From the NCBI RefSeq assembly GCF_001040705.1, contig NZ_CVQP01000010.1, positions 12,251-76,250 of the forward strand: 64,000 nt of DNA. Reading direction: 5' to 3'. The notes beneath the pieces are model-generated. The model was not told where the DNA came from, made no database searches, and saw only the letters and a program-made list of their open reading frames with translations. The position numbers were made by a program, and so were the translations under genes. The DNA comes from Rhodococcus sp. RD6.2. GTDB taxonomy: Bacteria; Actinomycetota; Actinomycetes; Mycobacteriales; Mycobacteriaceae. Shown here piece by piece: positions 10,739-64,000 of this stretch. Positions within the stretch are counted from its first letter, which is position 1; the number at the start of each line of letters is the position of its first letter.

Positions 10739-10744
10739 CAAAAA

Positions 10745-10779
10745 ACGGGGCCCCGCAGACCAGGTCTGCGGGGCCCCGT
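10745..10779 (-). terminator. Rho-independent terminator after rplI
   Basis: A perfect 16-bp stem (10745-10760 with 10764-10779) and a three-base loop. Read on the minus strand it is followed by a run of T (complement of the A-run before 10746), the textbook form for ending the rpsF-ssb-rpsR-rplI transcript. Confidence 0.9.
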
Positions 10780-10797
10780 CGGTGAACGGGCGTCGGA

Positions 10798-11253: not shown

Positions 11254-11270
11254 GTCTTCCCTCCCTTTCC

Positions 11271-11513: not shown

Positions 11514-11584
11514 TGTCCTTCTCCGTACTTCTCAATGTTTCTCGCGTTCGATCCGCGACAGGGACCTTCAGTCCCCGGCCGGGA

Positions 11585-12103: not shown

Positions 12104-12186
12104 GCGGTTCCTCCTGCAGTGTGTGGAATCCAGATTGCCCCGAGCCTAGGGCGTCACTCGGACACTCGCGGCTCGACGCAGACAGG

Positions 12187-12474
12187 TCACTTGTTGTGGC
12201 GCAGAACCTTGGTGCGGAGCACCGATTCGTTCAGGCCGAGCTGGCGATCCAGCTCGTTGACCGTGTCCGGGGTCGCCTTCAGGTCGATGACCGCGTAGAT
12301 GCCTTCGCTGTGCTTGGCGATCTCGTAGGCGAGACGACGCTTGCCCCAGATGTCGACGTTGTCGACGGAGCCGCCGTCCTGGCGGACAACATTGAGGAAC
12401 GTATCCAGCGACGGGGCGACGGTGCGCTCGTCCAGGCTGGGGTCGAGAATGACCATCAGTTCGTAATGACGCAT
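12187..12474 (-). CDS. rpsF: 30S ribosomal protein S6
   Basis: A 95-residue S6, the partner of S18 on the 30S platform. It opens [12 protein letters not shown] and contains [10 protein letters not shown]. It is the first gene of the operon and has a strong ribosome site (AGGAGG at 12487-12492, minus strand), thirteen to fourteen bases from the ATG. The leader upstream can fold into hairpins (see separate entry). Confidence 0.97.
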
Positions 12475-12486
12475 AAGACCTCATCA

Positions 12487-12550
12487 CCTCCTATGGACTG
12501 TGTAACGGTCACGGACGTTCCGTGACAGGAGGGTCGTTGCGTCAGCAACC
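12487..12550 (-). promoter_or_regulatory. Structured leader of rpsF operon, candidate S6:S18 autoregulatory RNA
   Basis: Upstream of rpsF the leader can form two hairpins: an 8-bp perfect stem at 12508-12526 (GTCACGGA/TCCGTGAC) and a 5-bp stem at 12536-12549 (GTTGC/GCAAC). In many bacteria the S6:S18 complex binds a leader RNA to limit its own synthesis. The base following the first stem reads CCG, a trinucleotide important in that motif, but I cannot confirm the full consensus by eye. Confidence 0.4.
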
Positions 12551-12645
12551 TTTGCAGGGTACACGAGGCGCCGCTGACCTGCGAAATCGCCCCCGCACCC
12601 CACGGGCGTCCAACTTCGGGCGTCGGTGCCCATAGGGTGGTTCGC

Positions 12646-14016
12646 ATGCGGACACCGACCCGGGCGAACCTGTGGACGCCCCTCGTGGTGACGCTGGTGT
12701 GCGGTCTGACGCTGGCGCTCGGCTACCTGAACAAGGCTCGGTGCTCGGGAGTCCCCTACGACTCGCAGGGCCGCAGCCTCGTGTTCGACCGTCTCAAGGA
12801 CTCCTCCGTCTGCTACTCCGACATCCAGTTCCTCTGGCTCGGACGCAGCATCAACGACCACGTCTTCCCGTACCTGAGCGGCGGGATCACCGGCGACGGC
12901 GGGCTGACGGGCGGCACCGTCGAGTACCCGGTGCTGAGTGGACTGCTGATGTGGCTCGGCGCGATCGGCGCGCACACCGACGCCGAATTCCTGCTCCAGT
13001 CCGCGCTGATCCTGGCCCCGTTCGCGCTGGCGACGGCGTGGATGCTCGGCCGCATGTCCGGATGGGCCGCCCTGCTGTGGTCGGCGGGCCCACCGCTCGT
13101 GCTCTACGCCTTCCACAACTGGGAACTTCCCGTCGTCGCCGCGGCCACCGCAGGCATCTTCGTCGTCGTCGCGTTCGACCGCGTGCCGCTCCGGACGCGG
13201 GGCGTGATCGCCGCGGTCCTGCTCGCAGTCGGCTTCTGTCTCAAGATCTACCCGGGCATCTTCGTCCTGCCCCTGGTCGCGTTCGTGCTCACCGGAGGAG
13301 TGGGCGGACGCGAACTGCCCGCGTCCGTGCCTGGCCGGTACGACGTGAAGGGTGCGCTCGCGGTCGCGGGTGCCGCGGTCGCGACGACGGTGGCGATCAA
13401 CCTGCCGTTCGCGATTCTCGGGTGGGACGGGTGGCTGGCGTCGTTCGCCTTCCAGTCCGACCGTCAGGCCGACGTCACCACGAACTCCGTGTGGTTCTGG
13501 GGAATTCGGCCTCTGTTCGACTCGGTCGAGGGCACCGACAGCGACTACGCCCGGTTCGTGTCCCTCGCGTCACCGCTCCTCGTCCTCGCGTCGTTCGCGC
13601 TGGCACTGTGGTTCGGCTGGCGCCGCTACCGGCGTGACGGCACGTACGCGTGGGTCGCGGTGAGCGGGGCGATGCTGTGCGGATTCCTGTTGCTGCACAA
13701 GGTGCATTCACCGCAGTACACGCTGTGGCTCATTCCGTTCCTAGTCCTGCTGCGCGTGCCGTGGACGCTCGTCGCCGGCTACCTGCTGGCGGACCTGGCG
13801 ATGGGTATCGGCGTGTTCCGTTACTTCGCCGCCCTCAGTGCGGGGGAAGACGCGTCCACCGAGGAACTCGCCGTCCAGTTCGGCGTGTGGGGACGCGCGG
13901 TTCTCCTGGTGGTGTTCTACGTCCTGTTCCTCCGTGCGGACCTACGCCGCCGACGGGACACCGAGGACGACGCACCAGAGACTCCCGCCGTTCCGGTGGG
14001 GACGAGCCCCGTCTGA
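12646..14016 (+). CDS. GT87-type membrane glycosyltransferase
   Basis: A 456-residue integral membrane protein of ten or more helices, of the GT87 (DUF2029) family, which in mycolic-acid bacteria uses polyprenyl-phosphate mannose to build lipomannan and related envelope glycans. The hallmarks are E-Y-P-V-L-S-G-L in the first loop and H-S-P-Q-Y-T-L-W-L-I-P near the end. The ATG at 12646 is preceded by the -10 hexamer TAGGGT (12633-12638) with seven bases between, which fits a leaderless transcript; GTG 12637 is the alternative. It resembles the protein at 14661-16274 and points the other way; a small lipoprotein gene lies between. Confidence 0.85.
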   Translation: MRTPTRANLWTPLVVTLVCGLTLALGYLNKARCSGVPYDSQGRSLVFDRLKDSSVCYSDIQFLWLGRSINDHVFPYLSGGITGDGGLTGGTVEYPVLSGLLMWLGAIGAHTDAEFLLQSALILAPFALATAWMLGRMSGWAALLWSAGPPLVLYAFHNWELPVVAAATAGIFVVVAFDRVPLRTRGVIAAVLLAVGFCLKIYPGIFVLPLVAFVLTGGVGGRELPASVPGRYDVKGALAVAGAAVATTVAINLPFAILGWDGWLASFAFQSDRQADVTTNSVWFWGIRPLFDSVEGTDSDYARFVSLASPLLVLASFALALWFGWRRYRRDGTYAWVAVSGAMLCGFLLLHKVHSPQYTLWLIPFLVLLRVPWTLVAGYLLADLAMGIGVFRYFAALSAGEDASTEELAVQFGVWGRAVLLVVFYVLFLRADLRRRRDTEDDAPETPAVPVGTSPV

Positions 14017-14023
14017 CCACCGG

Positions 14024-14608
14024 TCAGCGGTCACCGATCGACACGACCAACTGCATGCCGCCGTCGACCGCGCGCTCATCGACCTCGACGGCACCGGCGT
14101 CGGCGCGCAGCCCGATGAACGACTGCACGATCGAGTCGATCGCCGGCAGCTCGACGACCTCCACGACGCGGCCGAGGTCCGGGTCGACGTGCTGCCGGGG
14201 TTGCTCGCCGGGGCCCGTCACCCCACTGAGATCGACCTGCACGATCGACTCCCCGGCGACCGGTGCGATCGTGGCGCCGCCGTACGGAACCACTTCGGAC
14301 ACGACCCGCAGGGACCACCCGACGGCTCCGTCGCCCTGAACGGTGAAGGCGATCTCGTCGCGTCCACCCGCGGCCGCCAGATCGACGGCGGTCAGCACGG
14401 GCAACGGCGGCGGCGAGTACGCCGACGCGTCACCCGGGATCAGCGCCTGTGTCGGCGGGGCCGCTGGTGTGCCGACGACGAGGGTGCCGGACTGCGGCAG
14501 GCCCACACAGCATCCGCTCGACACCGCGGGGCCGGTGTTGGTTCCCGATCCACAGGCCGAGAGGACCGCCACCGCGGCGAGGCAGCCGGCGAGCTTCATA
14601 CGCGTCAC
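14024..14608 (-). CDS. Small lipoprotein with AMIN-like domain
   Basis: A 194-residue exported lipoprotein: signal peptide M-K-L-A-G-C-L-A-A-V-A-V with lipobox L-S-A-C at residues 16-19. The mature part resembles the AMIN-like domain found in many actinobacterial lipoproteins: R-D-E-I-A-F-T-V, then S-E-V-V-P-Y-G-G and V-D-L-S-G-V, near strands of a small beta-sandwich. The function is unknown; binding to cell-wall polymers is possible. It ends 8 bases from the end of the upstream GT87 gene (convergent) and starts 50 bases after the next GT87 gene on the same strand, so it probably shares that transcript. Confidence 0.72.
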   Translation of the reverse strand: MTRMKLAGCLAAVAVLSACGSGTNTGPAVSSGCCVGLPQSGTLVVGTPAAPPTQALIPGDASAYSPPPLPVLTAVDLAAAGGRDEIAFTVQGDGAVGWSLRVVSEVVPYGGATIAPVAGESIVQVDLSGVTGPGEQPRQHVDPDLGRVVEVVELPAIDSIVQSFIGLRADAGAVEVDERAVDGGMQLVVSIGDR

Positions 14609-14660
14609 GGTCGAAATCTATCCGTCGAACCCGGGCGGCGCGGCCGGAAACGCCGATCCG

Positions 14661-16274
14661 TCAGCCGATCCGCACCGGACCGGCCGTCGACCACGCCTGC
14701 GGTGACGGCACGGGACGCAACCATCGGGGCAGCCACCGTGGCGGGTCGTCGGGCGCACCGTCGAGGACGCCGCCGACGGGATCGTCGACGCCTGCGCCGC
14801 GCACCAGATCCTCGGCGGGGCGGTAGATCTGCCGAATCACCATGACGCACAGCACGATCACCGCGAGGTCGCGGACCACGACCGTTCCGGTGAACCACTG
14901 CTCGGGCAGTCCCTTGTTCGACACCCCGAGGTAGTAGAACATCCGCGGCACCCACACGATCGCGTCGATCGTCATCCACGCCAACAGGATTCGACGATGG
15001 GGGAGTGCCAGTACCGCGAGCGGCACCAGCCACAGCGAGTACTGCGGACTCCACACCTTGTTCGTCAGCAGGAACCCGGCGACCAGCAGGAAACACAGTT
15101 GCGCCACCCGCGGCCGGCGCGGCGCCGTCAATCCGATCCACCCGATGCCGACGCATACCGCGACGAACAGCAGCAGCGACACCGCGTTCAGCGTCGTCGG
15201 GCTCTCGCCGCGCGCGAGCGGACCGTCGAATCCCGCCCACCCCGTGAAGGACGAGACCACGTTGTACAGCGAATCCGGATCGGCACCCCGTTCCGAGTTG
15301 AGCCGGAAGAACTCCCACCACCCGGACGGGTACAGCAGCGCGATCGGAAGATTCACCACCAGCCACGCCGCACCCGCGCCGACGGTCGCCCGCCACCAGT
15401 CCCGGACGCGACCCGCGCGCAGGCACAGGACGAGGAGCGGACCGAGGAGCAGCAGCGGGTACATCTTCACGGCCCCACCGAGCCCGAGCAGAACACCCGC
15501 GAGAACCGGTTTCCGGCGCGCCCACGCGAGCAACCCAGTTCCCGCGAAAGCCGTTGCCAGCGGATCGAAATTGGTGAACGCGTGCACCACGACGAGAGGG
15601 GACACCGCGACAAGCGTCGCGTCCCACACCCGCCTGCCCGCCAGCAGCACCGTCGACCACACCGTCACCAGCCAGGCGATCGCCAAGCCGAACGCGACGA
15701 CGTTGAAGTACAGCACCACCTGCAGCGCACCGGGCAGCCACGGCGCCGCATGCCACGCCTTCGCGACCGTCATGGACGCGTACTGGTAGAGCCCGGCGAG
15801 CACCGGATACTCCATGTAGCGGGTCTGGACGGAACCGTCGGATGCCGGTTCTTCCCAGGACTTCTTGTACGGGAACGCGCCCTGGTCCAGGCGTTCCGCA
15901 CCGTACAGCGGCACCGTGTCCGAGTAGCAGAGCGCCGTGTACTGACGGCTGCCGCTCCAATCCAGGCCGAGTGCACCGTCCGGCCCGTTCGGAGCCTGCT
16001 GGATGCAGGGCGCCTTCGCCGTCCATCCCAGAGCCAGGAAGATCACCGCGAGCAGCAGGATCACCCGCAGCGGTGTCCAGAAGGGCTGCCGCCCGATCAC
16101 CGCCCGCTTGCCCACCGGACCGCCGAGCACCGTCGACACCTGTGCGCCGAGGGCGTCGGTGCGGCTCGGCAGGTCCCGATCGGCGCTGCGCAGGTCGTCG
16201 GCCAGCGGGGCCGGTGACACGATGGTCACCGGACCCGTGGAATCCGCTGCGCTGTCCCCTGAGTCGTCGGCCAC
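14661..16274 (-). CDS. GT87-type membrane glycosyltransferase, Rv0051-like
   Basis: A 537-residue polytopic membrane protein with an extra cytoplasmic N-terminus of about 65 residues. It has the same marks as its neighbour at 12646: M-E-Y-P-V-L-A-G-L and W-S-P-Q-Y-S-L-W-L-V-P. Position next to ponA matches M. tuberculosis Rv0051. The likely role is transfer of a sugar from a lipid-phosphate donor to an envelope glycan on the outer face of the membrane; the acceptor is unknown. The GTG start has TAACGT (16282-16287, minus strand) seven bases upstream, a leaderless arrangement. It lies 21 bases after ponA, so read-through is also likely. Confidence 0.83.
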   Translation of the reverse strand: MADDSGDSAADSTGPVTIVSPAPLADDLRSADRDLPSRTDALGAQVSTVLGGPVGKRAVIGRQPFWTPLRVILLLAVIFLALGWTAKAPCIQQAPNGPDGALGLDWSGSRQYTALCYSDTVPLYGAERLDQGAFPYKKSWEEPASDGSVQTRYMEYPVLAGLYQYASMTVAKAWHAAPWLPGALQVVLYFNVVAFGLAIAWLVTVWSTVLLAGRRVWDATLVAVSPLVVVHAFTNFDPLATAFAGTGLLAWARRKPVLAGVLLGLGGAVKMYPLLLLGPLLVLCLRAGRVRDWWRATVGAGAAWLVVNLPIALLYPSGWWEFFRLNSERGADPDSLYNVVSSFTGWAGFDGPLARGESPTTLNAVSLLLFVAVCVGIGWIGLTAPRRPRVAQLCFLLVAGFLLTNKVWSPQYSLWLVPLAVLALPHRRILLAWMTIDAIVWVPRMFYYLGVSNKGLPEQWFTGTVVVRDLAVIVLCVMVIRQIYRPAEDLVRGAGVDDPVGGVLDGAPDDPPRWLPRWLRPVPSPQAWSTAGPVRIG

Positions 16275-53367: not shown

Positions 53368-54042
53368 TCAGGCCGGGAGGATCAACTGCGGGAACTCGGC
53401 GACGGAGCCGACGACGTGGGTGGCGCCCGCGGCGCGGAGGCTCTCCTCGTCGTGGGCGCCGGTGAGGGTGCCGGCGACGATGGAGGCACCGGCGCGGAGA
53501 CCGGAGACGATGTCACTGGAGGTGTCTCCGAGGACCGCCACGTCCCGGACGTCGGCGACGCCGGTGCGCATCAGGGCGGTGAGGATCATGTCGGGAAAGG
53601 GACGCCCGCGCCCGGCATCGGCGGGGCAGAGGGTGATGTCGGCGAGGTCCTCCCACCCGAGCGTGGCGAGGATCTTCTTCTGGGTGCCGCGGCTGAAACC
53701 GGTGGTGAGAGCAACCTTCACACCGGCTGATCGCAGAACGGTGATCGCCTCGGCGGCGCCGGGGATGGGGGAGATGCCGCCGTCGGCGAGTGCCTCGTAG
53801 GCCGCCTCGAAGGCGAGGTTGGCCTGCTCGGCACGTTCCTGGGTGCCGAAGAGAGCGAGGAACACCTCGATCTTCGACTGGCCCATGGTGTCGAGCACGT
53901 AGGTGCGGGCATGGTCGCGTTCGGGGCCCTCTGCCTCGAGACCGACCGCTGTCGCCGCCTCGTCGAAGGCGCGGAGGACGAGCCCGTCGTCGGAAACGGT
54001 GGTGCCTGCCATGTCGAGTACTGCCAGGGCTGTTCGTGTCAC
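53368..54042 (-). CDS. Phosphonatase-like HAD hydrolase (TIGR03351, PhnX-related)
   Basis: A 224-residue HAD enzyme with the special features of phosphonoacetaldehyde hydrolase: nucleophile loop L-D-M-A-G-T-T (Asp10 instead of D-x-D), a cap lysine Lys57 in M-G-Q-S-K-I-E-V that can form a Schiff base with an aldehyde, Arg147 in G-R-P-F-P-D where other HADs have lysine, and G-D-T-S-S-D (Asp173, Asp177). It should break the C-P bond of phosphonoacetaldehyde or a hydroxy derivative. GTG 54042 is preferred because GAAGGA lies eight bases upstream; ATG 54051 overlaps that site. It is the first gene of the operon, behind a PhnF-type operator. No PhnW is nearby. Confidence 0.88.
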   Translation of the reverse strand: MTRTALAVLDMAGTTVSDDGLVLRAFDEAATAVGLEAEGPERDHARTYVLDTMGQSKIEVFLALFGTQERAEQANLAFEAAYEALADGGISPIPGAAEAITVLRSAGVKVALTTGFSRGTQKKILATLGWEDLADITLCPADAGRGRPFPDMILTALMRTGVADVRDVAVLGDTSSDIVSGLRAGASIVAGTLTGAHDEESLRAAGATHVVGSVAEFPQLILPA

Positions 54043-54111
54043 TGGGTTCATCCTTCGGATCGGGAACTGTTGCGGGGGGCCGCAGTTCGGCTCCGGTCAG
54101 TACCCTGAAGG

Positions 54112-54125
54112 TTGGTATAGACCAA
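54112..54125. promoter_or_regulatory. PhnF operator, copy 1
   Basis: TTGGTATAGACCAA, a near-palindrome containing TGGTATAGACCA, the binding sequence described for PhnF of Mycobacterium smegmatis. On the minus strand TTGGTC of the site could be the -35 element, with a 17-base gap to TACTGA, so binding would block the HAD-phnDCE operon promoter. Confidence 0.85.
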
Positions 54126-54169
54126 GGAGCGGACGCGGCTTGAACGCGAAGTGAACAGCAGCGGGCATC

Positions 54170-54183
54170 TTGGTATAGACCAA
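54170..54183. promoter_or_regulatory. PhnF operator, copy 2
   Basis: An identical 14-base copy, 58 bases from the first centre to centre. It lies just upstream of TAGGCT (54191-54196), a -10 element six bases before the regulator start codon, so it is placed to control the regulator gene itself. The regulator therefore probably represses both divergent transcripts. Confidence 0.85.
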
Positions 54184-54202
54184 CGGCTGATAGGCTGCGG
54201 CG

Positions 54203-54913
54203 ATGACCGCCGCCGAACCGCGAGTGCTCAAACATCAGGTCGTTCGCGCGCAGATCGAGAAGCTGCTGCTCGGACTCGACATCGGCGACCCGGTCCCCGC
54301 CGAGCGCGATCTCGCCGAACGCTTCGACGTGGCACGCGAGACTGTCCGGCAGTCACTTCGGGAGCTTCTCGTCGCCGGTCGGATCGAGCGGCGCGGACGC
54401 ACGACCGTCGTCGGCAGACCCAAGGTCGTGCAGCCACTGATGATCGGCTCGTACACCGAGGACGCCCTCGCGCAGGGCCGCACGGCGGGCCGTATCCCGG
54501 TCGGCTGGACCGACCTGAAGGCGGACGAGGAACTCGCCGCGGAACTTCAGATCCCGGTCGGTGCGCCCGTCCTCGAAATCGAACGCGTCCTCACCACCGA
54601 CGACACCCGCGTCGGCCTCGAGACCACGCGACTGCCCGCGTACCGCTACCCCGGGCTGATCACCGACTTCGACCACCGGTCGTCGCTGTACGCCGCGATT
54701 CGGGCCCGGGGCATCGAGTTCGCGCGGACCACCGAGGTCATCGAGACCACCCTGCCGGACGCCCGGGAGGCGGCTCTGCTCACCGTCGACGCACGCACCC
54801 CGATGTTCCTGCTCAACCGCGTCTCCTACGACCAGAACGACATCCCGATCGAGAAGCGCCGCTCGCTCTACCGAGGGGACCGGATGACGTTCACCGCGAC
54901 CCTCACCGGATAG
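54203..54913 (+). CDS. phnF: PhnF-like GntR regulator of phosphonate operon
   Basis: A 236-residue HutC-type regulator: GntR winged helix (P-A-E-R-D-L-A-E-R-F-D-V-A-R-E-T-V-R-Q-S-L, written in order) with G-R-I-E-R-R-G-R-T-T-V-V as the wing, then a UTRA ligand domain ending D-R-M-T-F-T-A-T-L. Its location and the two exact PhnF sites in the divergent promoter identify it as the local repressor, probably released by a phosphonate or by phosphate limitation. The ATG appears to be leaderless. Confidence 0.9.
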   Translation: MTAAEPRVLKHQVVRAQIEKLLLGLDIGDPVPAERDLAERFDVARETVRQSLRELLVAGRIERRGRTTVVGRPKVVQPLMIGSYTEDALAQGRTAGRIPVGWTDLKADEELAAELQIPVGAPVLEIERVLTTDDTRVGLETTRLPAYRYPGLITDFDHRSSLYAAIRARGIEFARTTEVIETTLPDAREAALLTVDARTPMFLLNRVSYDQNDIPIEKRRSLYRGDRMTFTATLTG

Positions 54914-54932
54914 CACCGCCTAAGGTCGGATC

Positions 54933-55610
54933 ATGCGCCCGACAGCACTGATCACCGGGGCGGGACGCGGCCTCGGCGCCGCCATCGCCCGTGAACTCGC
55001 CCCCACCCACGACCTCCTGCTCGGTGGCCGGACACCGGACTCCCTCGACGCGGTCCTCGGCGAACTCGCCGGTGCGCGCGGCTGGCCCGTCGATCTCACC
55101 GACCACGACGCGCTCGCGGACGCGGTCGCCCACATCGACCGGCTCGACGTCCTCGTGCACAACGCAGGAGTCGCCGAGATCGGTACGGTCGAAAGCACCC
55201 CGATCTCGGCCTGGCGGCACATGTACGAGGCCAACGTCCTCGCCGTGGTCGAACTGACCCGACTGCTGCTGCCAACCCTGCGGGAATCGAAAGCTCATGT
55301 GGTACTCATCAATTCGGGTGCCGGACTGCGCGCGAACCCCGGTTGGGGTGCGTACGCGGCGAGCAAGTTCGCGCTCCGCGCCTTCGGAGACACCCTCCGC
55401 GCCGAGGAACCATCGCTGCGCGTCACCTCGATCCACCCGGGACGCATCGACACCGACATGCAGCGCGCCATCGTCGCCACCGAAGGCGACGACTACGACG
55501 CCGACCGCTTCCTCACCCCCGAAACGGTGGCGTGGGCCGTCCGGAACGCCGTCGTGACGCCCCGCGACGCCCACCCCACCGAGATCGTGTTGCGGCCGAA
55601 TCCGCGCTGA
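54933..55610 (+). CDS. Short-chain dehydrogenase
   Basis: A 225-residue SDR enzyme: A-L-I-T-G-A-G-R-G-L-G-A-A-I, G-G-R-T-P, V-H-N-A-G-V-A, serine in L-I-N-S-G-A-G, and W-G-A-Y-A-A-S-K-F-A-L-R. It follows the phnF gene by 19 bases and may be co-transcribed with it. Actinobacterial homologues are frequent and of unknown substrate. It could reduce the aldehyde released by the phosphonate pathway, but it may simply be a neighbour. Confidence 0.85.
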   Translation: MRPTALITGAGRGLGAAIARELAPTHDLLLGGRTPDSLDAVLGELAGARGWPVDLTDHDALADAVAHIDRLDVLVHNAGVAEIGTVESTPISAWRHMYEANVLAVVELTRLLLPTLRESKAHVVLINSGAGLRANPGWGAYAASKFALRAFGDTLRAEEPSLRVTSIHPGRIDTDMQRAIVATEGDDYDADRFLTPETVAWAVRNAVVTPRDAHPTEIVLRPNPR

Positions 55611-55619
55611 CCGAGCGCC

Positions 55620-56798
55620 TTACACGCCGCGGTCCACCAGGACGCAGCGCGCACGCGTGAAGATCGTCGGCATGCACTTGTTGCAGTGGATGCACAGAGA
55701 CCGAGTCCGCTCGTCCTCCGTGATCCGGTTGATCAGATCCGGTTCCCGCAGCAGGGCACGCGCCATCGCAACGAAGTCGAAACCCTCGGCCATCGCGGTG
55801 TCCATGCCGGCCTTGTCGGTGACACCGCCGAGCAGTACGAGCGGCATGTCCACGGCGGCTCGGATCTGGCGGGCCGATTCGAGCATGAACAGCGGCTCGT
55901 ACGGGTACGTGCGAATGAACTGCTTGCCGATCATTTTCACGCCCATCCGGACGAGCGGCTGGTCCATCGCCTTCGCGAACTCGTGCACCGGCGCGTCGCC
56001 GCGGAAGAGGTACATCGGGTTGAGCAGCGAACTGCCCATCGTCAACTCCAGTGCGTCGAGGCTGCCGTCGGCCTCCAACCACTGTGCGACCTGGATCGCC
56101 TCGTCCACCCAGAAGCCGCCCGGGACGCCGTCGTCGATGTTCAGCTTCGCGAGGATCGCGATCCGGTCGCCGACCGCGTCCCGAACCGCGCGCGCCGTCT
56201 CCAACACGATGCGGGCCCGATTCTCCAGCGATCCGCCGTAGGAATCGGTGCGGTGGTTCGTCTTTCGGCTGAGAAACGAGCTGGCGAAGTAGTTGTGGCC
56301 GAAGTGGATCTCGACCGCGTCGCACCCGCTTTCGATAGCGAACCGGGCAGCGTCGGCATGCGCGGCGGTGATGCGGCGGATGTCGTCGAGGGTCGCCGAC
56401 TTCGTGACCTTCATGCTCATCGGGTTGAACGACGTCGACGGCGCGAGCGCGGGCAACCCGTTGGACTTCGCGTTGGCGACCGGCCCTGCGTGACCGATCT
56501 GCGCGGACACCGCCGCCCCTTCGGCGTGCATCGCGTCGGTGAGCCGCCGCAGGCCCGGCACCACCTCGGGTCGCATCCACAACTGCCCGTACTCGGTACG
56601 CCCCTCCGGCGCGACCGCGCAGTACGCGACCGTCGTCATCCCGACACCACCGGCGGCGACCTCGCGATGGAAGTCGATGAGGTCGTCGGTGACCAGGGCG
56701 TTCGGTGTCCGCCCCTCGAACGTCGCCGACTTGATGATGCGGTTGCGCAGGGTGAGGGGGCCCAGCTTGGCGGGCGCCAACACGTCGGGGTGGGTCAC
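55620..56798 (-). CDS. Old-yellow-enzyme family NADH:flavin oxidoreductase
   Basis: A 392-residue FMN barrel protein: L-R-N-R-I-I-K-S-A-T-F-E-G, A-Q-I-G-H-A-G, E-I-H-F-G-H-N-Y-F, and S-Y-G-G-S-L-E-N-R. Near the end it has C-I-H-C-N-K-C followed ten residues later by C, similar to the iron-sulfur site of 2,4-dienoyl-CoA reductase-type enzymes, although the flavodoxin-like C-terminal domains of those enzymes are absent. So it may be a stand-alone barrel with a 4Fe-4S cluster. GTG 56798 has GGAGG upstream. The substrate is unknown. Confidence 0.85.
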   Translation of the reverse strand: MTHPDVLAPAKLGPLTLRNRIIKSATFEGRTPNALVTDDLIDFHREVAAGGVGMTTVAYCAVAPEGRTEYGQLWMRPEVVPGLRRLTDAMHAEGAAVSAQIGHAGPVANAKSNGLPALAPSTSFNPMSMKVTKSATLDDIRRITAAHADAARFAIESGCDAVEIHFGHNYFASSFLSRKTNHRTDSYGGSLENRARIVLETARAVRDAVGDRIAILAKLNIDDGVPGGFWVDEAIQVAQWLEADGSLDALELTMGSSLLNPMYLFRGDAPVHEFAKAMDQPLVRMGVKMIGKQFIRTYPYEPLFMLESARQIRAAVDMPLVLLGGVTDKAGMDTAMAEGFDFVAMARALLREPDLINRITEDERTRSLCIHCNKCMPTIFTRARCVLVDRGV

Positions 56799-56990: not shown

Positions 56991-57827
56991 TCAGACGAGG
57001 GCGGCGGCGGCGAAGGCGGCGAGAGCGACGAGCGCGGCGCCGGTCACAGACTGCACCCGGCGATCCACGACGCACATCACCGACAGGAAGCCGGGCATCG
57101 AGCCGCCGCGACGGGTGTGGACGATCGCCGCGAGGCTCGGCATGCACCGCCCGAGCGAGACCACGGTGAACATGGCCGCGCCGAGTGCGGGGGAGCCGGC
57201 CGCAAGGACGCCGAGCACCAGCAGGTAGTACGCGCTGGACCGGATGAAGATCAGGAAGCCCGGGCCGATGATGGCGCCGAACAGCAGCGACACCTTCCAC
57301 GGTTCCATCGTCCTGCGCAGGTGCCGCGGCAACTGCCTGCGCCGCATCGGCGCGGGCATCGTCATCACGCCCAGCTCGTGCAGGCCGTACGCCAGCGCGA
57401 ACAGTGCCCACCCGAAGAGCATCCAGGTCACCGACAGATGAGCGGACACCAGCGAGCCGAGGGCACCGAGCGCCGCGCCGGTGACGGCGCCGGTGGCCAC
57501 CGAGCCGAGCGCGTGCCAGGCGAGCCGGCGCACCGGCGTCGACGTGCCCTTGCGGCCGGGTTGCTTCGGTGCCGCGACCACGCCGGCGACGGACATGCCG
57601 CACGTCGACCAGTTCGCGGCAAGGGACGTCACCAGGCCCGCACCGACCACGGCGGCGGTCAGTGCCGTCGACGTCGACGGATTCGCCAGGGTGGCGACAC
57701 CTGCGCCGACCGCGGCCGCCCCGGCGATCATCCCGACGCGGGCGGGTACCGCAACCGCGTCGCCGAGGGCGGGTCGGATGTCGGGCAGATCGGTCTCGAT
57801 CGGTCCGTGATTGAGGACGGTTGTCAT
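56991..57827 (-). CDS. Membrane protein of mau-type operon (MauF-like position)
   Basis: A 278-residue protein with about seven membrane helices. Cysteines occur in N-W-S-T-C-G-M-S, L-G-R-C-M-P-S and V-M-C-V-V, which would allow disulfide exchange across the membrane as in CcdA/DsbD-type proteins. In Paracoccus the mau cluster has a membrane protein, MauF, needed for enzyme formation; I infer the same role from position, not from clear similarity. ATG 57827 has GGAGG upstream. It is the last gene of the operon, 35 bases after the second cupredoxin gene. Confidence 0.55.
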   Translation of the reverse strand: MTTVLNHGPIETDLPDIRPALGDAVAVPARVGMIAGAAAVGAGVATLANPSTSTALTAAVVGAGLVTSLAANWSTCGMSVAGVVAAPKQPGRKGTSTPVRRLAWHALGSVATGAVTGAALGALGSLVSAHLSVTWMLFGWALFALAYGLHELGVMTMPAPMRRRQLPRHLRRTMEPWKVSLLFGAIIGPGFLIFIRSSAYYLLVLGVLAAGSPALGAAMFTVVSLGRCMPSLAAIVHTRRGGSMPGFLSVMCVVDRRVQSVTGAALVALAAFAAAALV

Positions 57828-57862
57828 CGTTTACCTCCAAAGTCGTTGCTGAACTCGAGTTC

Positions 57863-58210
57863 TCACTCGACCGTGACGGTGCCCGTCATGTACCGGTGCA
57901 CCGAGCAGGTGTAGACGTAGGTTCCCGCGCGGTCGAAGGTGTGCCGAAAGGTGCCGACACCAGCTATCCCACTGTCGAATTCGCCCTCCACTCCCAGCCT
58001 GGGCTCCGCTGCCACGTGATGCAGGACGCCGCCGTCGTCGAACCTCCACTCGACGGTCCCGCCGACGGGAACGGTGACGTCCGCCGGACCGAACTGCACA
58101 TTGCTGATCTCGATCACCGCGTCCGGCGGGCCCTCCCCTGAGCAGCCTGCGAGGAGGACGGCGGCGATGCCCGGAAGCGCGAACCTCCTTCCGATTCCGT
58201 TGCGGCGCAC
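57863..58210 (-). CDS. Amicyanin-like cupredoxin lipoprotein 2
   Basis: A 115-residue blue-copper protein attached as a lipoprotein (L-L-A-G-C at residues 19-23). Type 1 copper ligands can be placed: histidine in V-L-H-H-V, then C-S-V-H-R-Y-M (Cys, His three further, Met six further). The short ligand loop is that of amicyanin. Such proteins accept electrons from the quinone of amine dehydrogenase. The GTG start at 58210 shares its first base with the stop codon of the neighbouring cupredoxin gene (TAGTG), so the two are translated together. Confidence 0.83.
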   Translation of the reverse strand: MRRNGIGRRFALPGIAAVLLAGCSGEGPPDAVIEISNVQFGPADVTVPVGGTVEWRFDDGGVLHHVAAEPRLGVEGEFDSGIAGVGTFRHTFDRAGTYVYTCSVHRYMTGTVTVE

Positions 58211-58551
58211 TATTGCACGATCACCATGCCGACCATCATCGGGTGCGGCGTGCAGTGGTAGGTGTAGGTTCCGGGGTCGCCGAAGGTGTACTCGTAGGTG
58301 CCTTCGGTGAGCAGCTCGCTCTGCAGGACACCCTCGAGCGCACCGTCGCCGGAGACGTCGTGCGGCAGGCCGTTGTCGTCGAACCGCCACTGCACCGTCT
58401 GCCCGGCTTCGATCGTCACGGAGGCCGGCGTGTACGACATGTTCTTCACGTCGATCACCACCGCAGGCTCGGCCGACGCGTCCGCGGAACCGCACGCGGT
58501 CAGGCTCGTCACGGTCGCCAGTGCGGCGAGGAGGGGAAGCAGTTTCTTCAT
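58210..58551 (-). CDS. mauC: Amicyanin-like cupredoxin lipoprotein 1
   Basis: A 113-residue cupredoxin: lipoprotein signal with L-T-A-C at residues 17-20, then V-V-I-D-V-K-N-M-S-Y-T-P, W-R-F-D-D-N-G-L-P-H-D-V (His ligand) and Y-T-Y-H-C-T-P-H-P-M-M (Cys, His, Met ligands). C-T-P-H-P-x-M is the amicyanin loop, so this is the best candidate for the natural electron acceptor of the dehydrogenase. A lipid anchor replaces the free periplasmic location it has in Gram-negative bacteria. It lies 12 bases after the multicopper oxidase gene. Confidence 0.85.
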   Translation of the reverse strand: MKKLLPLLAALATVTSLTACGSADASAEPAVVIDVKNMSYTPASVTIEAGQTVQWRFDDNGLPHDVSGDGALEGVLQSELLTEGTYEYTFGDPGTYTYHCTPHPMMVGMVIVQ

Positions 58552-58563
58552 CGGGGGGTCCTC

Positions 58564-60138
58564 TCAACGGATGTACCGCAGGTTCGCGGTCATCCCGGCT
58601 TCGAAGTGATAGGCGTTGTGGCAGTGGAACATCCATTCGCCAGGATTGTCGGCGTCGAACTCGATCGCGAGTTCGGTACCGGGGAGGACGTTGACGGTGT
58701 CCCGGCGCAGGCCGCCGTAGTCGGGGACGGCGAAGGTGTGGCCGTGGGTGTGCATGGGATGCCACATCGTGGTGGTGTTCGCCATGGTGATGCGGATCCG
58801 TTCGCCCTGCCGCATCACCAGCTTCCCGGCGTCCGGGCCGGCCATGCCCCAGACGTACCGGTCGCCTGCCTGGATCAGTTCGACGCGGTAGTCCCGGTCC
58901 GGAGTCCGTGTGTCGAGGCGAACTCCGTCGGCGGGACGCAGCGCGCTCTCGGCGAGAAGCCGTCCCGACAGTTCCGGAATTGCACCCCCGGCAACCGGAT
59001 GGGCCAACGGCGCGGCATCCGTGGACCGGAGGACGGTGGACGCGTACCCGTCACGTCCCTCGACCTTCGCCACCACCGGCCACGCCCCCGACTTCAGGGT
59101 CACGAGCACGTCGTAACGCTGCGCCATCCCGACGACGAGGGTGTCGGTGGTGGTCGGCACGACGTCGAACCCGTCCACCGCGATCACGGTCAACTCGTGA
59201 CCCGCGACCGCGAACCGGTACGGGGTCTCGGCTGCCGCGTTGATGATCCGCAGCCGGACCCGCGCACCCGGTGCCGCGGTCACCACCTCCGGGTCGTTCG
59301 GCGGTCGCCCGTTGACCAGGTGCAGCGGGTACCCGATGTGCTGGGTCATGCCACCGAGCGGATCCGACGCCCCGTGCCCGCCCGCGACGAGCGACTGCGC
59401 GACGCCGATCGAGTCGGCGGAGTGCACGACCGGGGCGCCACCACCGCCGTGACCGGCGTGCCCACCGGAGATCGCCGGGTTCAATGCCATCAGAACGGCG
59501 TCCGGTGTGGTGCCCAGCCCGTCGAGCCAGTCGTCGAGCACCAGCACGGCGTCGACGTCCGCCCCGGAGGTGTCGTCCGGGTCCTCCACCACCAGCGCAC
59601 CGAACAGACCACGGTCGGCCTGCAGTCCGCTGTGCGAGTGGTACCAATGGGTTCCGGGGTCGGGAACGACGAACTCGTAGTCGAACCCGGTCCCGGGACC
59701 GATCGGCGCCTGGGTCGCCGGGGCAGCGCCGTCCATGTCGTTGCGGATCCGGATGCCGTGCCAGTGCAGCGTCGTGTCCGCGGGCAGGTCGTTGCGGACG
59801 GCCACCTGCAGTCGGTCCCGGGCGGTGACCCGCAGTTCGGGGGCCACCGCCTTCCCGCCGTAGGACCAGGTGTCGACGAGCCGCCCACCGAGGTCGACGG
59901 TGGCGACACCGGCGGTCAACGCGAACGGCGCGACGCGCCCGTTCCACCCCCGGGCCGCCTCCGCCGCCGCGATCTCGGGATCGGTCGGTGCGATGTAGTC
60001 GGGCGGCGACGTGGAGTCCGTCGCCTCGACGAATCCACATGCCGTGGTACCCGTTCCCAGCACCCCGAGGCCGAGGGCCCCGAGGGACCCCAGCCGCAGG
60101 AACCCGCGACGGTCGAGGACGGGCCCACGGCGCGTCAT
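58564..60138 (-). CDS. Multicopper oxidase in mau-type operon
   Basis: A 524-residue multicopper oxidase exported by a twin-arginine signal (L-D-R-R-G-F-L-R-L-G). All copper sites are complete: H-W-H-G, H-W-Y-H-S-H, H-P-M-H-T-H-G-H and H-C-H-N-A-Y-H-F-E-A-G-M. A histidine/glycine-rich loop (G-G-H-A-G-H-G-G-G-G) lies in the middle. Its ATG overlaps the mauB stop codon by four bases, so it is a true member of the operon. It could pass electrons from the cupredoxins to oxygen, or take part in forming the tryptophylquinone, a step done by the haem protein MauG in Paracoccus. No mauG is visible here. Confidence 0.9.
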   Translation of the reverse strand: MTRRGPVLDRRGFLRLGSLGALGLGVLGTGTTACGFVEATDSTSPPDYIAPTDPEIAAAEAARGWNGRVAPFALTAGVATVDLGGRLVDTWSYGGKAVAPELRVTARDRLQVAVRNDLPADTTLHWHGIRIRNDMDGAAPATQAPIGPGTGFDYEFVVPDPGTHWYHSHSGLQADRGLFGALVVEDPDDTSGADVDAVLVLDDWLDGLGTTPDAVLMALNPAISGGHAGHGGGGAPVVHSADSIGVAQSLVAGGHGASDPLGGMTQHIGYPLHLVNGRPPNDPEVVTAAPGARVRLRIINAAAETPYRFAVAGHELTVIAVDGFDVVPTTTDTLVVGMAQRYDVLVTLKSGAWPVVAKVEGRDGYASTVLRSTDAAPLAHPVAGGAIPELSGRLLAESALRPADGVRLDTRTPDRDYRVELIQAGDRYVWGMAGPDAGKLVMRQGERIRITMANTTTMWHPMHTHGHTFAVPDYGGLRRDTVNVLPGTELAIEFDADNPGEWMFHCHNAYHFEAGMTANLRYIR

Positions 60139-61448
60139 TCCAGCACCTGCGGAGTGAGCAGGGTTCCGACGTCCTCGACGGTGCCCGTGACCTCTGCCGA
60201 GCTGACCTTGTCACCGGTGGCGGCGGCGATACCGACGATCGTCTTCTTGGTCTCGCCGTCCACCTCCGGGCCGTCCCCGAGCACGTACAGCGTCGCACCG
60301 TCGACCGACCATGCCATGCTGTCGATCCCGGTCAGTCCGAGATACGGCAGGTCCAGCGTCTTGACCGGAGCGAAGGTCGCCGCGTCGCGCAGTTCGATCT
60401 TCACGACGTCGCCGCCGCGGGCCGAGTCCGGGTGGATCGCCGAATCCGTGTACTCGACGGCGAGGCGACCACCGGTGTTGTCGATGGCGTTCTCCCCGAA
60501 CCGGCCTCCCTCCTGGCCTGCATTGCCGATCGGTGCCACGGCCCCGGTGGGCAGACCATTCGAGAAGTCGAAGACGTAGACGTCGCCGTTCTCTCCGACG
60601 AGCAGTGCCTTCTTCGCATCGGCGGCCCACGTGACCTTGCGGGTGCTGACGAAGTCCTCGGGAAGCACCTTCGACCGCTTGGTCTCCGAGGGGACGCCGG
60701 AGTCGTCGATGGAGATCTGGATCAGCTCACGTGTCTCCTCGCAGATGCTGTACAGCTCGTGGCCGTCGAGCCAGGTGAACGGCCCGCAGCCGATGATCTG
60801 CACCGCACCGCTCTCCTTCTTCGCCTCCAGGTCCACGACCCGGACGCCGTAGAGCCCGTCGTCCCAGGTGACGAAATACTTGCCGTCGGAGGTGACGGCA
60901 TTCGATCCGGGGCGCGAATGCACGCGGGCGTAGTCGGGCAGCGGTGCCTCCGACGGTTCGAGGAGATTGCCCGAGTAGGTGCTCACGATGAAGCTCGCCG
61001 CACCGCGCGACCCGCGGGGTCGCCACACCTCGGCGGCGAGAACGGCTGGATCGCTCGATGTCTCGCCGACGAACCCGTGGATGACCGGATCCCAGATGCC
61101 CGGTCCCACGACGAATCTGCTTCCGGCGACCCCGGTCACCGGGTCGATCGCGTTGACACCCAATTCGAGCTTGCCGAACCCGCCCGCAACGGCGAGCAGA
61201 TCTGTCGACTTGATCGGGGTGATCTCACCGACGTGCACCGGCTCCGGAATGGTGGCGCCGATCTCCTGGTCGTCGTGACCGAGCGAGATGCCCTCACCGG
61301 GCGCGGTGAACGGCACGGTCGGATAGGTGACCTCGCCGGCAGCGGCGTCGTCGTCGGCGGAGCTGCACCCGGCGAGCCCCAGGGTGGCCGCCAGCGGCAG
61401 CACAACCGCTGCCGACCGGGAAAGACGCGTCATGTGTGTGCTTTTCAT
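60135..61448 (-). CDS. mauB: Amine dehydrogenase heavy-chain-like propeller lipoprotein
   Basis: A 437-residue exported protein with lipobox L-A-G-C (about residues 25-28). The rest is a beta-propeller with recurring strands such as L-L-A-V-A-G-G-F-G-K-L-E-L-G-V-N and L-L-V-G-E-N-G-D-V-Y-V-F-D. In methylamine dehydrogenase the heavy chain is a seven-bladed propeller that clasps the light chain. Similarity to MauB is structural rather than close in sequence, so I rely on the position directly after mauA. The ATG overlaps the mauA stop codon (ATGA). ATG 61433 is a possible alternative start. Confidence 0.75.
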   Translation of the reverse strand: MKSTHMTRLSRSAAVVLPLAATLGLAGCSSADDDAAAGEVTYPTVPFTAPGEGISLGHDDQEIGATIPEPVHVGEITPIKSTDLLAVAGGFGKLELGVNAIDPVTGVAGSRFVVGPGIWDPVIHGFVGETSSDPAVLAAEVWRPRGSRGAASFIVSTYSGNLLEPSEAPLPDYARVHSRPGSNAVTSDGKYFVTWDDGLYGVRVVDLEAKKESGAVQIIGCGPFTWLDGHELYSICEETRELIQISIDDSGVPSETKRSKVLPEDFVSTRKVTWAADAKKALLVGENGDVYVFDFSNGLPTGAVAPIGNAGQEGGRFGENAIDNTGGRLAVEYTDSAIHPDSARGGDVVKIELRDAATFAPVKTLDLPYLGLTGIDSMAWSVDGATLYVLGDGPEVDGETKKTIVGIAAATGDKVSSAEVTGTVEDVGTLLTPQVLE

Positions 61449-62125
61449 GCTCCAGCACCGACCTTCGGGCGCTCGGCCGGACGGGTCTGGCAGTCCTCGC
61501 CGATGATGGGCGCCATCGTGCAGGTGTAGGCCTGCGACTCGTCGGAGACGCACCAGATGATCTCCTGGTCGTAGCTTCCCGACACCGGGTTGTACATGAC
61601 CGCCTGCATGTCCGGTTCGCCGCAGAACGCGTTCGAACACGACGGGGCCCCGCAGCAGTCGTAATAGGCGATGAGATAGGTCTTTCCGGTGTCCGGGTTG
61701 GTACAGCAGCCCACCCAGAATTCGGCACCGGGCTTGGAGCCGGGCGCGCAGGTCGTCACGCCGCCGCCGTTGCAGGTGGCACACGAGGTGCCGTCCATGT
61801 TGCACCAGCGCCAGTACTCACACTCGGCGGGATCCTTCCCGTCGTACACCGGTACCAGCGGCTCCGGTGCCTCGGGGGCGGGGGGTGCCTCCTGGGCCAT
61901 CGCGGTGCGGGTCACCGGAAGCGATCCGATCAGCGCGACCCCCGACACCCCCATCGTCCACCGACCCACCCTGCTCAACATCGAGCGTCGCGAAACCCGT
62001 TCGGACAGTTTGCGTCCCGTGCGGCTGGTGAACGATCCGCCCCGACCCGCCATCCACGCGGCCTGCTCGCGAACGGTGTCCTCGTCGACCGGATACCTGT
62101 TCTCGGTCATGTCATGGTGTTCCAC
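61445..62125 (-). CDS. mauA: Amine dehydrogenase light chain with TTQ cofactor site
   Basis: The 226-residue precursor of a methylamine-dehydrogenase-type light chain, which carries the tryptophan tryptophylquinone cofactor and oxidises primary amines to aldehyde and ammonia. A twin-arginine signal (V-S-R-R-S-M-L) is followed by the cysteine-rich domain. The cofactor tryptophans are Trp137 (E-F-W-V-G-C) and Trp191 (E-I-I-W-C-V), equivalent to Trp57 and Trp108 of the Paracoccus enzyme. Fourteen cysteines are in the mature part; the twelve of Paracoccus can be matched. C-E-Y-W-R-W-C-N-M-D-G and L-I-A-Y-Y-D-C-C-G are conserved. GTG 62125 has AAGGAGA upstream. Confidence 0.93.
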   Translation of the reverse strand: MEHHDMTENRYPVDEDTVREQAAWMAGRGGSFTSRTGRKLSERVSRRSMLSRVGRWTMGVSGVALIGSLPVTRTAMAQEAPPAPEAPEPLVPVYDGKDPAECEYWRWCNMDGTSCATCNGGGVTTCAPGSKPGAEFWVGCCTNPDTGKTYLIAYYDCCGAPSCSNAFCGEPDMQAVMYNPVSGSYDQEIIWCVSDESQAYTCTMAPIIGEDCQTRPAERPKVGAGA

Positions 62126-62149
62126 GGACGTGTCTCCTTCTCTCGGAAC

Positions 62150-62749
62150 TCAAGCCGACTTCGCCTGCGCATGCAGGTGCTGGAGGGACGGGGTGCCGGA
62201 CTCGAGGGCGTTGAGCAGACTCTCGACCTGGGCCATGTGGTTGCACAGGCCCTTGCCGGCAATCTTCCCGTGCTCGTCGAGGATCACCCCGTACGGTGTG
62301 GTGCCGACCTGGTAGGCGATGCCGACGTCGCGGGCGTCGACGTAGCTCAACTCGGCTCCGATGTTGCTGCCCGCCAGAAACTCCCGGTGCTCCTCCGGGG
62401 TTCCGTCGGAGATGATCACGACGTCGAGGTCGGACTCGGCACGTGCCATCGATCGCAGTCCGGGGAGCAGGCTCTTGCAGGTACTGCAGCTCGGCGCGGT
62501 GAACATCAGCAGCTGCGGCTTGTCGCGGTGACCGCCGACCCGCACGGAGCGTCCGAGGTGGTCCTCGAGTCCCGCGAACGACGGGCCCGCCTGCGCGACC
62601 TTCGGACCGGTGTCCATCATCCGGGCACCCAGCGGACCGAGCCGCACCTGGACGCGTCCGATCTCCCGCGCCAGGGCCAACGTCATCAGGAACAGCAGCG
62701 CCACCGCCACCGCCAACACGACGACGCCCACCACCAGAAATGTTGTCAT
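62150..62749 (-). CDS. mauD: MauD-like thioredoxin-fold protein
   Basis: A 199-residue protein anchored by one N-terminal helix, with a TlpA-like thioredoxin domain outside the membrane; the redox motif is A-P-S-C-S-T-C-K-S. In Paracoccus, MauD and MauE are required to form the six disulfides of the light chain. The ATG overlaps the mauE stop codon (ATGA) and mauA follows after 24 bases. Confidence 0.9.
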   Translation of the reverse strand: MTTFLVVGVVVLAVAVALLFLMTLALAREIGRVQVRLGPLGARMMDTGPKVAQAGPSFAGLEDHLGRSVRVGGHRDKPQLLMFTAPSCSTCKSLLPGLRSMARAESDLDVVIISDGTPEEHREFLAGSNIGAELSYVDARDVGIAYQVGTTPYGVILDEHGKIAGKGLCNHMAQVESLLNALESGTPSLQHLHAQAKSA

Positions 62750-63384
62750 CGAACCAGTCCCGTCTGTCGTGGAAGTTGTTGAAGGTCGATCACTGCGGTG
62801 TCGTACCGCGACACCGTGTTCGAGGCCCGCAGGTTCATCGACGCGGCCGTGAGATAGTCGTCGACCGGCCTGCGCCCCAGGTGGACGACGGCGCGGATCT
62901 GTGCCACCGCCACCGCCGCCAGCAGGATCAGCAGACCCGCTGCGACGCCGACCAACCTCGCGACCGGTGCCACCTCCGGTGTCGGTACGAGCGCCAGCGC
63001 TGCCGCGACCGTCATGAACGCTCCTGCGCGGACCGCATGGAACCAGCCGATGCGCGGCACCTCGTGTCCGGCGCTGAACGCGAAGCAACCGCAGTCGAGG
63101 TCGCGGCGTCCCCGCGCCAGGTTGACGGTGAGCCCCGTCACGAATCCGGCGAACAGCACGGTTGCCGCCGCCGCGGACCATCGGCCACCCACTCCGGCGA
63201 TCAGCAACACTCCGATCGCGACCTCGACGTACGGCAAGGTCACCGCCACGAGACGTTCCAGCGATGCCGGCAGCAGCCGGTATCCCTTGACCACCATCAA
63301 CAGTCCGTCACGGTCACCGAGTTTCGGGACGCCCGCGAGCAGAAGCGTTCCGCCGAGAATCGATGCCACCACCACCCAGAACAT
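62746..63384 (-). CDS. mauE: MauE-like membrane protein
   Basis: A 212-residue membrane protein with four to five helices and the motif D-L-D-C-G-C-F-A between the second and third, typical of the MauE/DoxX-related family. It probably passes electrons to or from MauD for disulfide formation in the light chain. It is the first gene of the operon. ATG 63384 has GAGAGAGG upstream, about ten bases away. Confidence 0.88.
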   Translation of the reverse strand: MFWVVVASILGGTLLLAGVPKLGDRDGLLMVVKGYRLLPASLERLVAVTLPYVEVAIGVLLIAGVGGRWSAAAATVLFAGFVTGLTVNLARGRRDLDCGCFAFSAGHEVPRIGWFHAVRAGAFMTVAAALALVPTPEVAPVARLVGVAAGLLILLAAVAVAQIRAVVHLGRRPVDDYLTAASMNLRASNTVSRYDTAVIDLQQLPRQTGLVR

Positions 63385-63781
63385 TGATCACGTCCTCTCT
63401 CTCGTCGTGACAATGGTGGTGGGCGAATGCGGCGGTTTCGCTGCGCGCGAGCAACATCCGTACGCATCACGAGTGGAAATAGACCACGGATCGTTCCGTT
63501 CGCATCCGCACTGGTGGAGACCTGAATCCCGGAGCCGACGCCACCCACGAGCGGCGGTGTCAGGGGCGCTCGGCGGTGCACCGACCACATCGATTTCCAC
63601 TTGGGGAAACACCATCGAAACCGTGGCAACACCCGTGAAACCGCCGACGCCCGGGCGCCGCCCTCGCCGACATGAGCCCGCGTCCCTTCGGGAAACTCGC
63701 CGGAAACACGAACCTTCTAGCCTTCCGAAGGACGACCGACCGAATGATGGCCGGCCCGGTGATCGAGAACGAGGTACCGAT
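63385..63781. other. Divergent promoter region, mau-type operon and permease
   Basis: These 397 bases separate mauE from the divergent permease gene. I see no gene. The sequences GAAAC and GTTTC/TTTCC recur several times (near 63594-63645 and 63690-63707), which might be regulator sites, but I could not define a clear palindrome. No mauR-type LysR gene is next to it. Confidence 0.45.
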
Positions 63782-64000
63782 GTGGCAGCCAACAGATCTG
63801 GTGGAAGGTGGTCGCGAAACGGTGGTGCACTCGGCGCCGCGATCGCGCGGGCACGCACCACACCGCCTCCGACACAACAGGTCTTCTCACCGTTGGGAGC
63901 ACTGGGGCGGCGTCAGCTCTCACAGGTCGACCTGATCGGACAATCCCTCTCGACGATCGCGCCTGCGACCGGGATGATCTACATTGCCGCCTGGATGATT
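63782..64000 (+). CDS. Amino-acid/amine permease (APC family), 5' part
   Basis: The first 73 codons of a gene that runs past the end of the window. After a basic N-terminus comes L-S-Q-V-D-L-I-G-Q-S-L-S-T-I-A-P-A-T-G-M-I-Y-I, the first membrane segment of an APC-family amino-acid or polyamine permease. GTG 63782 has GAGG about eight bases upstream. It is divergent from the amine dehydrogenase operon, so import of the amine substrate is a natural guess. The frame has no stop within the window. Confidence 0.72.
   Translation, partial: MAANRSGGRWSRNGGALGAAIARARTTPPPTQQVFSPLGALGRRQLSQVDLIGQSLSTIAPATGMIYIAAWMI

Follow-up and report, generated by a model that had tools for sequence, protein, structure and literature searches.

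A multicopper oxidase in a MauG-less, TTQ-type amine dehydrogenase operon of Rhodococcus and other actinobacteria

The 64,000-nucleotide stretch of Rhodococcus sp. RD6.2 DNA analysed here (the window; positions 12251-76250 of contig 10, from a genome of 5.57 Mb that is 99.99% complete) carries on its minus strand an eight-gene operon, running from 63384 to 56991, that by its parts is a predicted tryptophan tryptophylquinone (TTQ)-type amine dehydrogenase system. It combines light and heavy chain genes with a multicopper oxidase (MCO), two cupredoxins and a homologue of MauF, and it does not qualify as a canonical mau cluster, because a search for MauG found no family member. We lean, with little better than even confidence, towards a surface chain in which electrons pass from an amine via TTQ and an amicyanin-like cupredoxin to the MCO and O2, the TTQ being made without MauG. 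The complete operon that the initial annotation had described in this Gram-positive actinobacterium was confirmed by the open reading frames of the window and by family searches: all eight genes are present, as are both cofactor tryptophans of the light chain. In transcriptional order, the genes are:

62746..63384, minus strand: mauE homologue, 212 amino acids, DoxX/MauE-type membrane protein with a CxC motif (C98/C100); PF07291, E 1.9e-23
62150..62749, minus strand: mauD homologue, 199 amino acids, thioredoxin-like, CxxC motif (C88/C91); TIGR02661
61445..62125, minus strand: mauA homologue, predicted TTQ-type light chain, 226 amino acids; PF02975, E 9.4e-32
60135..61448, minus strand: mauB homologue, divergent MADH-like heavy chain, 437 amino acids, lipobox-like C28; profile comparison
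58564..60138, minus strand: three-domain MCO, 524 amino acids; PF07732, PF07731, PF00394
58210..58551, minus strand: cupredoxin 1, amicyanin-like, probable lipoprotein, 113 amino acids, loop CTPHPMM; PF00127, 1e-12
57863..58210, minus strand: cupredoxin 2, probable lipoprotein, 115 amino acids, GTG start, loop CSVHRYM; PF00127, 7.1e-7
56991..57827, minus strand: mauF homologue, 278 amino acids, integral membrane protein, conserved NWSTCGMS motif; BLASTP and hhalign

Four of the seven gene junctions overlap (-4, -4, -4 and -1 nt) and the other three are spaced by 24, 12 and 35 nt. From other actinobacteria 36 related loci were fetched, 33 with the whole operon stretch and three on short contigs (L036-L038), whose light chains are 62-92% identical to that of the window; the closest named relative is the operon of Rhodococcus triatomae (92%). 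The same genes recur in these loci, mostly in the same order, so the operon is not a chance arrangement. mauE, mauD, mauA, mauB, at least one cupredoxin gene and mauF are each found in 33/33 complete loci, the second cupredoxin gene in 31/33 (L030 and L035 lack it) and the MCO gene in 32/33. The paired cysteines of the two thiol proteins are equally constant: C98 and C100 of MauE occur in all 35 alignment rows that reach them (one row is gapped), and the CxxC of MauD, which matches TIGR02661 (E 1.3e-51) with 174.8 bits, below the cut-off of 188.6, is kept in 36/36 rows.

The light chain is the sole PF02975 copy in the genome and matches the methylamine dehydrogenase (MADH) light chains of the PDB (E 4.5e-31). 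Its cofactor tryptophans W137 and W191 coincide in the alignment with the tryptophan pair conserved in MADH and aromatic amine dehydrogenase (AADH); W137 is present in 37/37 rows and W191 in 36/37, the exception being a frameshifted draft contig (L036). Two aspartates, D111 and D156, also align with MADH and AADH and occur in 37/37 rows; we take them to be the counterparts of the active-site residues beta Asp32 and Asp76. The protein has a twin-arginine signal (R46 R47) and, after residue 80, 14 cysteines that are found in 36/37 rows, two above the count for the MADH light chain. The actinobacterial light chains thus have these 14 cysteines in their mature part, together with a C-terminal extension that is absent from MADH, and the extra cysteines probably form an additional disulphide.

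Identification of the heavy chain and of the last gene required profile methods. Unlike canonical MADH, the actinobacterial heavy chain is too divergent for PF06433: none of the 12 members searched matched this or any other relevant Pfam family (one had a weak SMP-30/gluconolactonase match). In a comparison of its profile with the PDB, MADH heavy chains rank first (E 8.5e-4), and hhalign against a profile built from 11 Gram-negative heavy chains gives 98.4% (E 1e-14, 331 columns); judged by these profiles, it is a very divergent homologue of the MauB/AauB propeller chain. The last gene, which the initial annotation listed simply as a membrane protein, has no match in Pfam or NCBIfam, and by comparison with Paracoccus denitrificans MauF (BLASTP 1e-11; hhalign 99.3%, E 8.5e-21) its product is identified as a MauF homologue. 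In Kineococcus (L033) this gene lies between mauA and mauB, and MauF is therefore part of the system rather than a mere operon-end gene.

Besides MauG, we know of no enzyme that completes TTQ. Its role in finishing the cofactor of MADH is described in two papers (PMC6405878, PMC7876137), the second of which has flavoproteins serving the related cysteine tryptophylquinone cofactor; in Methylacidiphilum infernorum, a homologue of MauG reportedly lies apart from mauBEDA (PMC2474590). The initial annotation saw no mauG and allowed that one might lie elsewhere in the genome, and the wider search bears the absence out: the MauG family PF03150 is matched neither in the window's own genome nor in 36 other mauA-bearing actinobacterial genomes (some of them drafts or metagenome-assembled genomes). 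As a control, the same family finds P. denitrificans MauG (8.2e-45) and has matches beside all three MADH-type plasmid operons. A MauG hidden nearby was likewise sought by its dihaem motif in 39 stretches (frames of at least 250 amino acids containing two CxxCH motifs spaced by 80 or more; the control L042 was detected, on the plus strand) and rejected, the single match, in L034, being QcrC beside qcrA/B (by inspection). Because PF03150 is unmatched in the window's own and the 36 other mau-bearing genomes, TTQ, if it is formed, seems to form without MauG.

How unusual this is depends on the comparison. Of 30 plasmid records in which a relative of mauA had been found, we examined 17 Gram-negative loci. 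MauF, MauG and MauJ occur together in three of them (L042, L146, L148), and in the other 14, covered as stretches of 12-20 kb, none of the three has a match; AADH-type mauBEDA clusters of Pseudomonas, Cupriavidus and Novosphingobium (L043, L147, L149, L154), for example, resemble the actinobacterial operon in having TTQ genes with no mauG alongside. The absence of mauG beside TTQ genes, which the initial annotation pointed out, is therefore ordinary for AADH-type clusters (14/17 loci), and an AADH cluster without mauF and mauG was reportedly described in 2001. PF03150 was found elsewhere on two of the 11 MauG-less AADH-type records searched, both Burkholderia replicons (the search covered these replicons themselves). 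Among the Gram-negative loci examined MauF keeps to those with MauG, and the actinobacterial operon is distinct in having MauF but no MauG; the unusual feature is thus MauF without MauG, combined with the lack of any PF03150 match genome-wide.

Compared with the mauFBEDACJG clusters of P. denitrificans (L042) and Methylobacterium (L146), the actinobacterial operon shares MauF, MauB, MauE, MauD, MauA and a cupredoxin that may be of the amicyanin type, with a light chain 35-37% identical to that of their MADH and both cofactor tryptophans in common. In contrast to these clusters, it is without MauG, has no MauJ among its eight genes, follows the order E-D-A-B, adds an MCO and a second cupredoxin, and has parts that are probably lipid-anchored. 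The 14 AADH-type clusters have no MauF or cupredoxin match and, unlike the actinobacterial operon, contain cytochrome c genes in eight of the nine annotated loci (not L044). In 13 of these 14 MauG-less loci there is no MCO match nearby, the sole one being in Chimaeribacter, and MauG-less TTQ clusters therefore need no adjacent MCO. A plasmid of Paracoccus sp. SMMA_5_TC (L150, 1810-10868) has AADH-type mauBEDA with a SCO-family gene upstream and, downstream, a tyrosinase-family gene; the latter may encode a further copper oxygen enzyme that adjoins TTQ genes without MauG.

The MCO has all three expected domains (Cu-oxidase_3, Cu-oxidase_2 and Cu-oxidase, E 6.7e-36 to 2.3e-26) and a twin-arginine pair (R10 R11). 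Eleven His/Cys ligand positions and the axial M516 are invariant in all 34 rows that cover this part, as are the motifs HWHG, HSH, HPMHTH and HCHxxxHxxxxM, and, in what we take to be the correct assignment of these motifs, the type 1, 2 and 3 copper ligand sets are complete. A methionine-ligated type 1 copper has a modest potential, which fits the acceptance of electrons from cupredoxins and is ill suited to the oxidation of tryptophan. Among 251 genomes sampled from the window's family, mauA is present in 40 and an operon-type MCO in 39 of those, the only mauA genome without one being an assembly in about 950 contigs with 75% completeness; at E 1e-140, no operon-type MCO was found in the 211 genomes that lack mauA. 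Within the window's genus, mauA is present in two of six genomes and the MCO in those same two. The Fisher test for co-occurrence gives p 5e-45, a value that overstates the evidence because the genomes are related. For these counts, 42 genomes had a mauA match at E<=1e-3, of which two (G842 and G912, about 20 bits) were excluded as not being mauA; up to five first-look MCO candidates were scored per genome, and the threshold of 1e-140 was chosen after operon MCOs had been seen at 1.7e-156 or below and copper-resistance-like MCOs at 2.5e-122 or above. Together with its retention across the loci, these counts rule out the MCO as a chance neighbour.

Both cupredoxins have a full set of copper ligands: H64, C100, H103 and M106 in cupredoxin 1 (35/35 rows), and H64, C102, H105 and M108 in cupredoxin 2, in whose alignment the rows of L030, L035 and L037 represent a single cupredoxin-1-type gene. 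In P. denitrificans, amicyanin carries electrons from MADH to cytochrome c-551i; none of the eight operon genes encodes a cytochrome. The best NCBIfam match of cupredoxin 1 is TIGR02657 (amicyanin; 1.1e-15), with 57.7 bits, under the cut-off of 110.2, and its C-x2-H-x2-M spacing is that of amicyanin, with the ligands as given in PMC12723479. In MauB (C28, in 37/37 rows), the MCO (C34) and the two cupredoxins (C20 and C23), the signal segment ends with a fully conserved cysteine. These cysteines presumably correspond to lipoprotein sites, that of the MCO being less typical, and they would therefore tether the proteins to the outside of the membrane in a cell that has no Gram-negative periplasm.

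From gene content, homologies, ligands, the PF03150 result and co-occurrence, we infer the following model. The light chain would be exported via the twin-arginine translocation route, its disulphides would be formed with the help of MauE and MauD, and a further step would involve MauF, with TTQ built from W137 and W191 without a dihaem enzyme of the MauG family. It would then pair with the lipid-anchored propeller heavy chain and oxidise a primary amine, and the electrons would pass to one or both of the lipid-anchored, amicyanin-like cupredoxins and on to the type 1 copper of the MCO, which, also lipid-anchored, would reduce O2 to water. The initial annotation had offered the MCO either as the enzyme that completes TTQ or as a terminal oxidase; these are the right alternatives, although they are not equal, the all-copper chain being better supported. 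The role of oxidase is favoured over that of maturase because the operon is conserved without the MCO in Planctomonas, because in Rhodococcus erythropolis a second MCO is paired with a cupredoxin and no mauA lies beside them, because the type 1 copper ligand Met516, that of a modest oxidant, is invariant, and because a Chimaeribacter plasmid has a distant MCO beside MauG-less mauBEDA.

The initial annotation had asked whether the oxidase is always present and whether a relative could make active enzyme without it; its presence is almost universal, and the one complete operon without it, in Planctomonas deserti (L035), would be such a case if its enzyme is active. There, mauEDAB, one cupredoxin gene and mauF are all open, with no MCO gene between them, and the best match to the operon MCO in the genome (31%, E 3e-6) is a distant MCO at another place. 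The mauB gene ends in ATGA, the overlap that most MCO-bearing operons use, which may be chance. Branch lengths of the core proteins are similar in Planctomonas (0.59) and its sister, the MCO-bearing Microbacterium L034 (0.53), so that the Planctomonas proteins are not visibly decayed. The case is an isolated one: among three genomes of the genus only one has mauA and no second MCO-less operon was found, in a sample of 299 genomes of its family mauA occurs only in Planctomonas itself, and in a phylum sample of 396 genomes it occurs in the window's own genome, with one further 20-bit match below the curated cut-off. In R. erythropolis (L074, about 10531-15266), the second MCO and its cupredoxin lie about 6 kb from the operon MCO with no mauA beside them; this MCO is about 60% identical to the operon MCO, passes the 1e-140 threshold and branches within the clade of operon MCOs (97/98; with a long-branch flag). 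On the Chimaeribacter arupi plasmid (L151, 3592-8908), mauBEDA is followed by an annotated cytochrome c gene, a gene for a small protein and then an MCO gene, the product of which is 27-32% identical to the operon MCO; PF03150 has no match on this plasmid. Both systems thus have MauG-less TTQ genes followed by an MCO, while in Chimaeribacter a c-type cytochrome replaces the cupredoxins and the light chain is AADH-like. Enterobacterales generally lack cytochrome c oxidase, so Chimaeribacter would need a private oxidase, and we read its MCO as a probable independent recruitment of a private terminal oxidase, although a role in maturation would fit too.

Several observations weigh against a terminal oxidase. 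MauF is present in all three MauG-bearing and none of the 14 MauG-less Gram-negative loci, and its occurrence here without MauG is a hint that MauG has a substitute, perhaps the MCO. The Planctomonas operon, from a single genome that also has a distant MCO, may be decaying or rewired, since the permease, the regulator and one cupredoxin are missing as well. The second MCO of R. erythropolis lies beside an iron-siderophore-type binding lipoprotein and ABC (ATP-binding cassette) exporters (by eye) and could serve metal oxidation. Electrons could also pass to the bcc-aa3 chain instead, which would make an oxidase superfluous, and in Microbacterium stercoris (L034, 3070-19564) the cassette sits between what look like ctaC-ctaD-ctaF and qcrB-qcrA-qcrC (by inspection).

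The strongest alternative, which we nevertheless consider unlikely, is that the MCO replaces MauG and oxidises a precursor light chain, probably with a monohydroxylated tryptophan, to TTQ with O2 by a copper route. It would account for the place of the MCO in the operon, its near-perfect co-occurrence with mauA, the lack of a MauG-family match in the genomes searched, the presence of MauG's usual companion MauF, and the MCO that adjoins MauG-less mauBEDA in Chimaeribacter. It is opposed by the Planctomonas operon, which has no MCO and no close relative of it in the genome, by the 13 MauG-less Gram-negative loci without a nearby MCO, by the pairing of an MCO with a cupredoxin without mauA in R. 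erythropolis, and by the modest oxidising power of the copper site. The fuller form of this idea, in which the actinobacterial MCO displaced MauG, builds TTQ with copper and O2 and is possibly also the terminal oxidase, making the system haem-free, we hold to be slightly less likely still.

That the MCO instead handles copper or another metal, as a cuprous oxidase or in copper loading or detoxification for the cupredoxins, outside the electron chain, is improbable. Its best NCBIfam match is indeed a copper resistance MCO, at 247.7 bits where the cut-off is 479, and its next relatives in the 15 genomes searched (41-46% identity) lie in neighbourhoods of copper-resistance type (by eye). However, the operon MCOs form a clade of their own (100/95, branch length 1.82) that excludes the copper-resistance-like MCOs (L075-L077) found in these actinobacteria; the latter are the nearest kin and yet are unlinked to mau. 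Moreover, among the 251 genomes the operon type accompanies mauA alone at the threshold used, and its gene shares its first 4 nt with the end of mauB. Least probable is that cupredoxin electrons enter the bcc-aa3 respiratory chain with the MCO as a side or safety outlet, which would suit the MCO-less Planctomonas operon and the Microbacterium cassette but not the near-perfect retention of the MCO or the lack of a cytochrome c gene in the operon.

Upstream of the operon, the following features were recorded:

63385..63781, no strand: divergent intergenic region between permease and mauE, probable regulatory region, as judged from gene order
63782..64000, plus strand: permease-like membrane protein, GTG start, conserved and divergently oriented, running on to L002:3580
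L002:3577-4335: IclR-type regulator after the permease; PF01614 (8e-16), PF09339 (9e-11)

The permease-like family is found in 30 loci, including that of the window; it has no Pfam match and a weak resemblance to LAT1 in the PDB (E 0.7). An IclR-type regulator was called in 15 loci, and other flanking families recur in about nine loci at most, mostly in R. erythropolis-like strains. At the other end, genes for phosphonoacetaldehyde hydrolase-like, GntR, short-chain dehydrogenase/reductase and flavin oxidoreductase proteins (53368-56798; names by eye) adjoin the operon. Considered as a clue to the substrate, they were dropped: relatives at E 1e-20 occur in just one of the 36 loci (L010, R. triatomae; flanks of up to 10 kb), and they therefore say nothing about the amine.

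Among the papers that our search could reach, most subscription journals lying beyond it, we recognised none that deals with a mau operon of actinobacteria that includes an MCO. One review assigns methylamine dehydrogenase to Gram-negative and methylamine oxidase to Gram-positive bacteria (PMC8292978), a division that the actinobacterial operon fails to fit at the level of its genes. A conserved TTQ operon without the MauG family implies a second route to TTQ or else a different cofactor, and the maturation of MauG-less TTQ enzymes becomes testable in a tractable Rhodococcus. The operon also suggests an extracellular, haem-free chain from amine to oxygen in these actinobacteria, which might find use in amine biosensors and biocatalysis.

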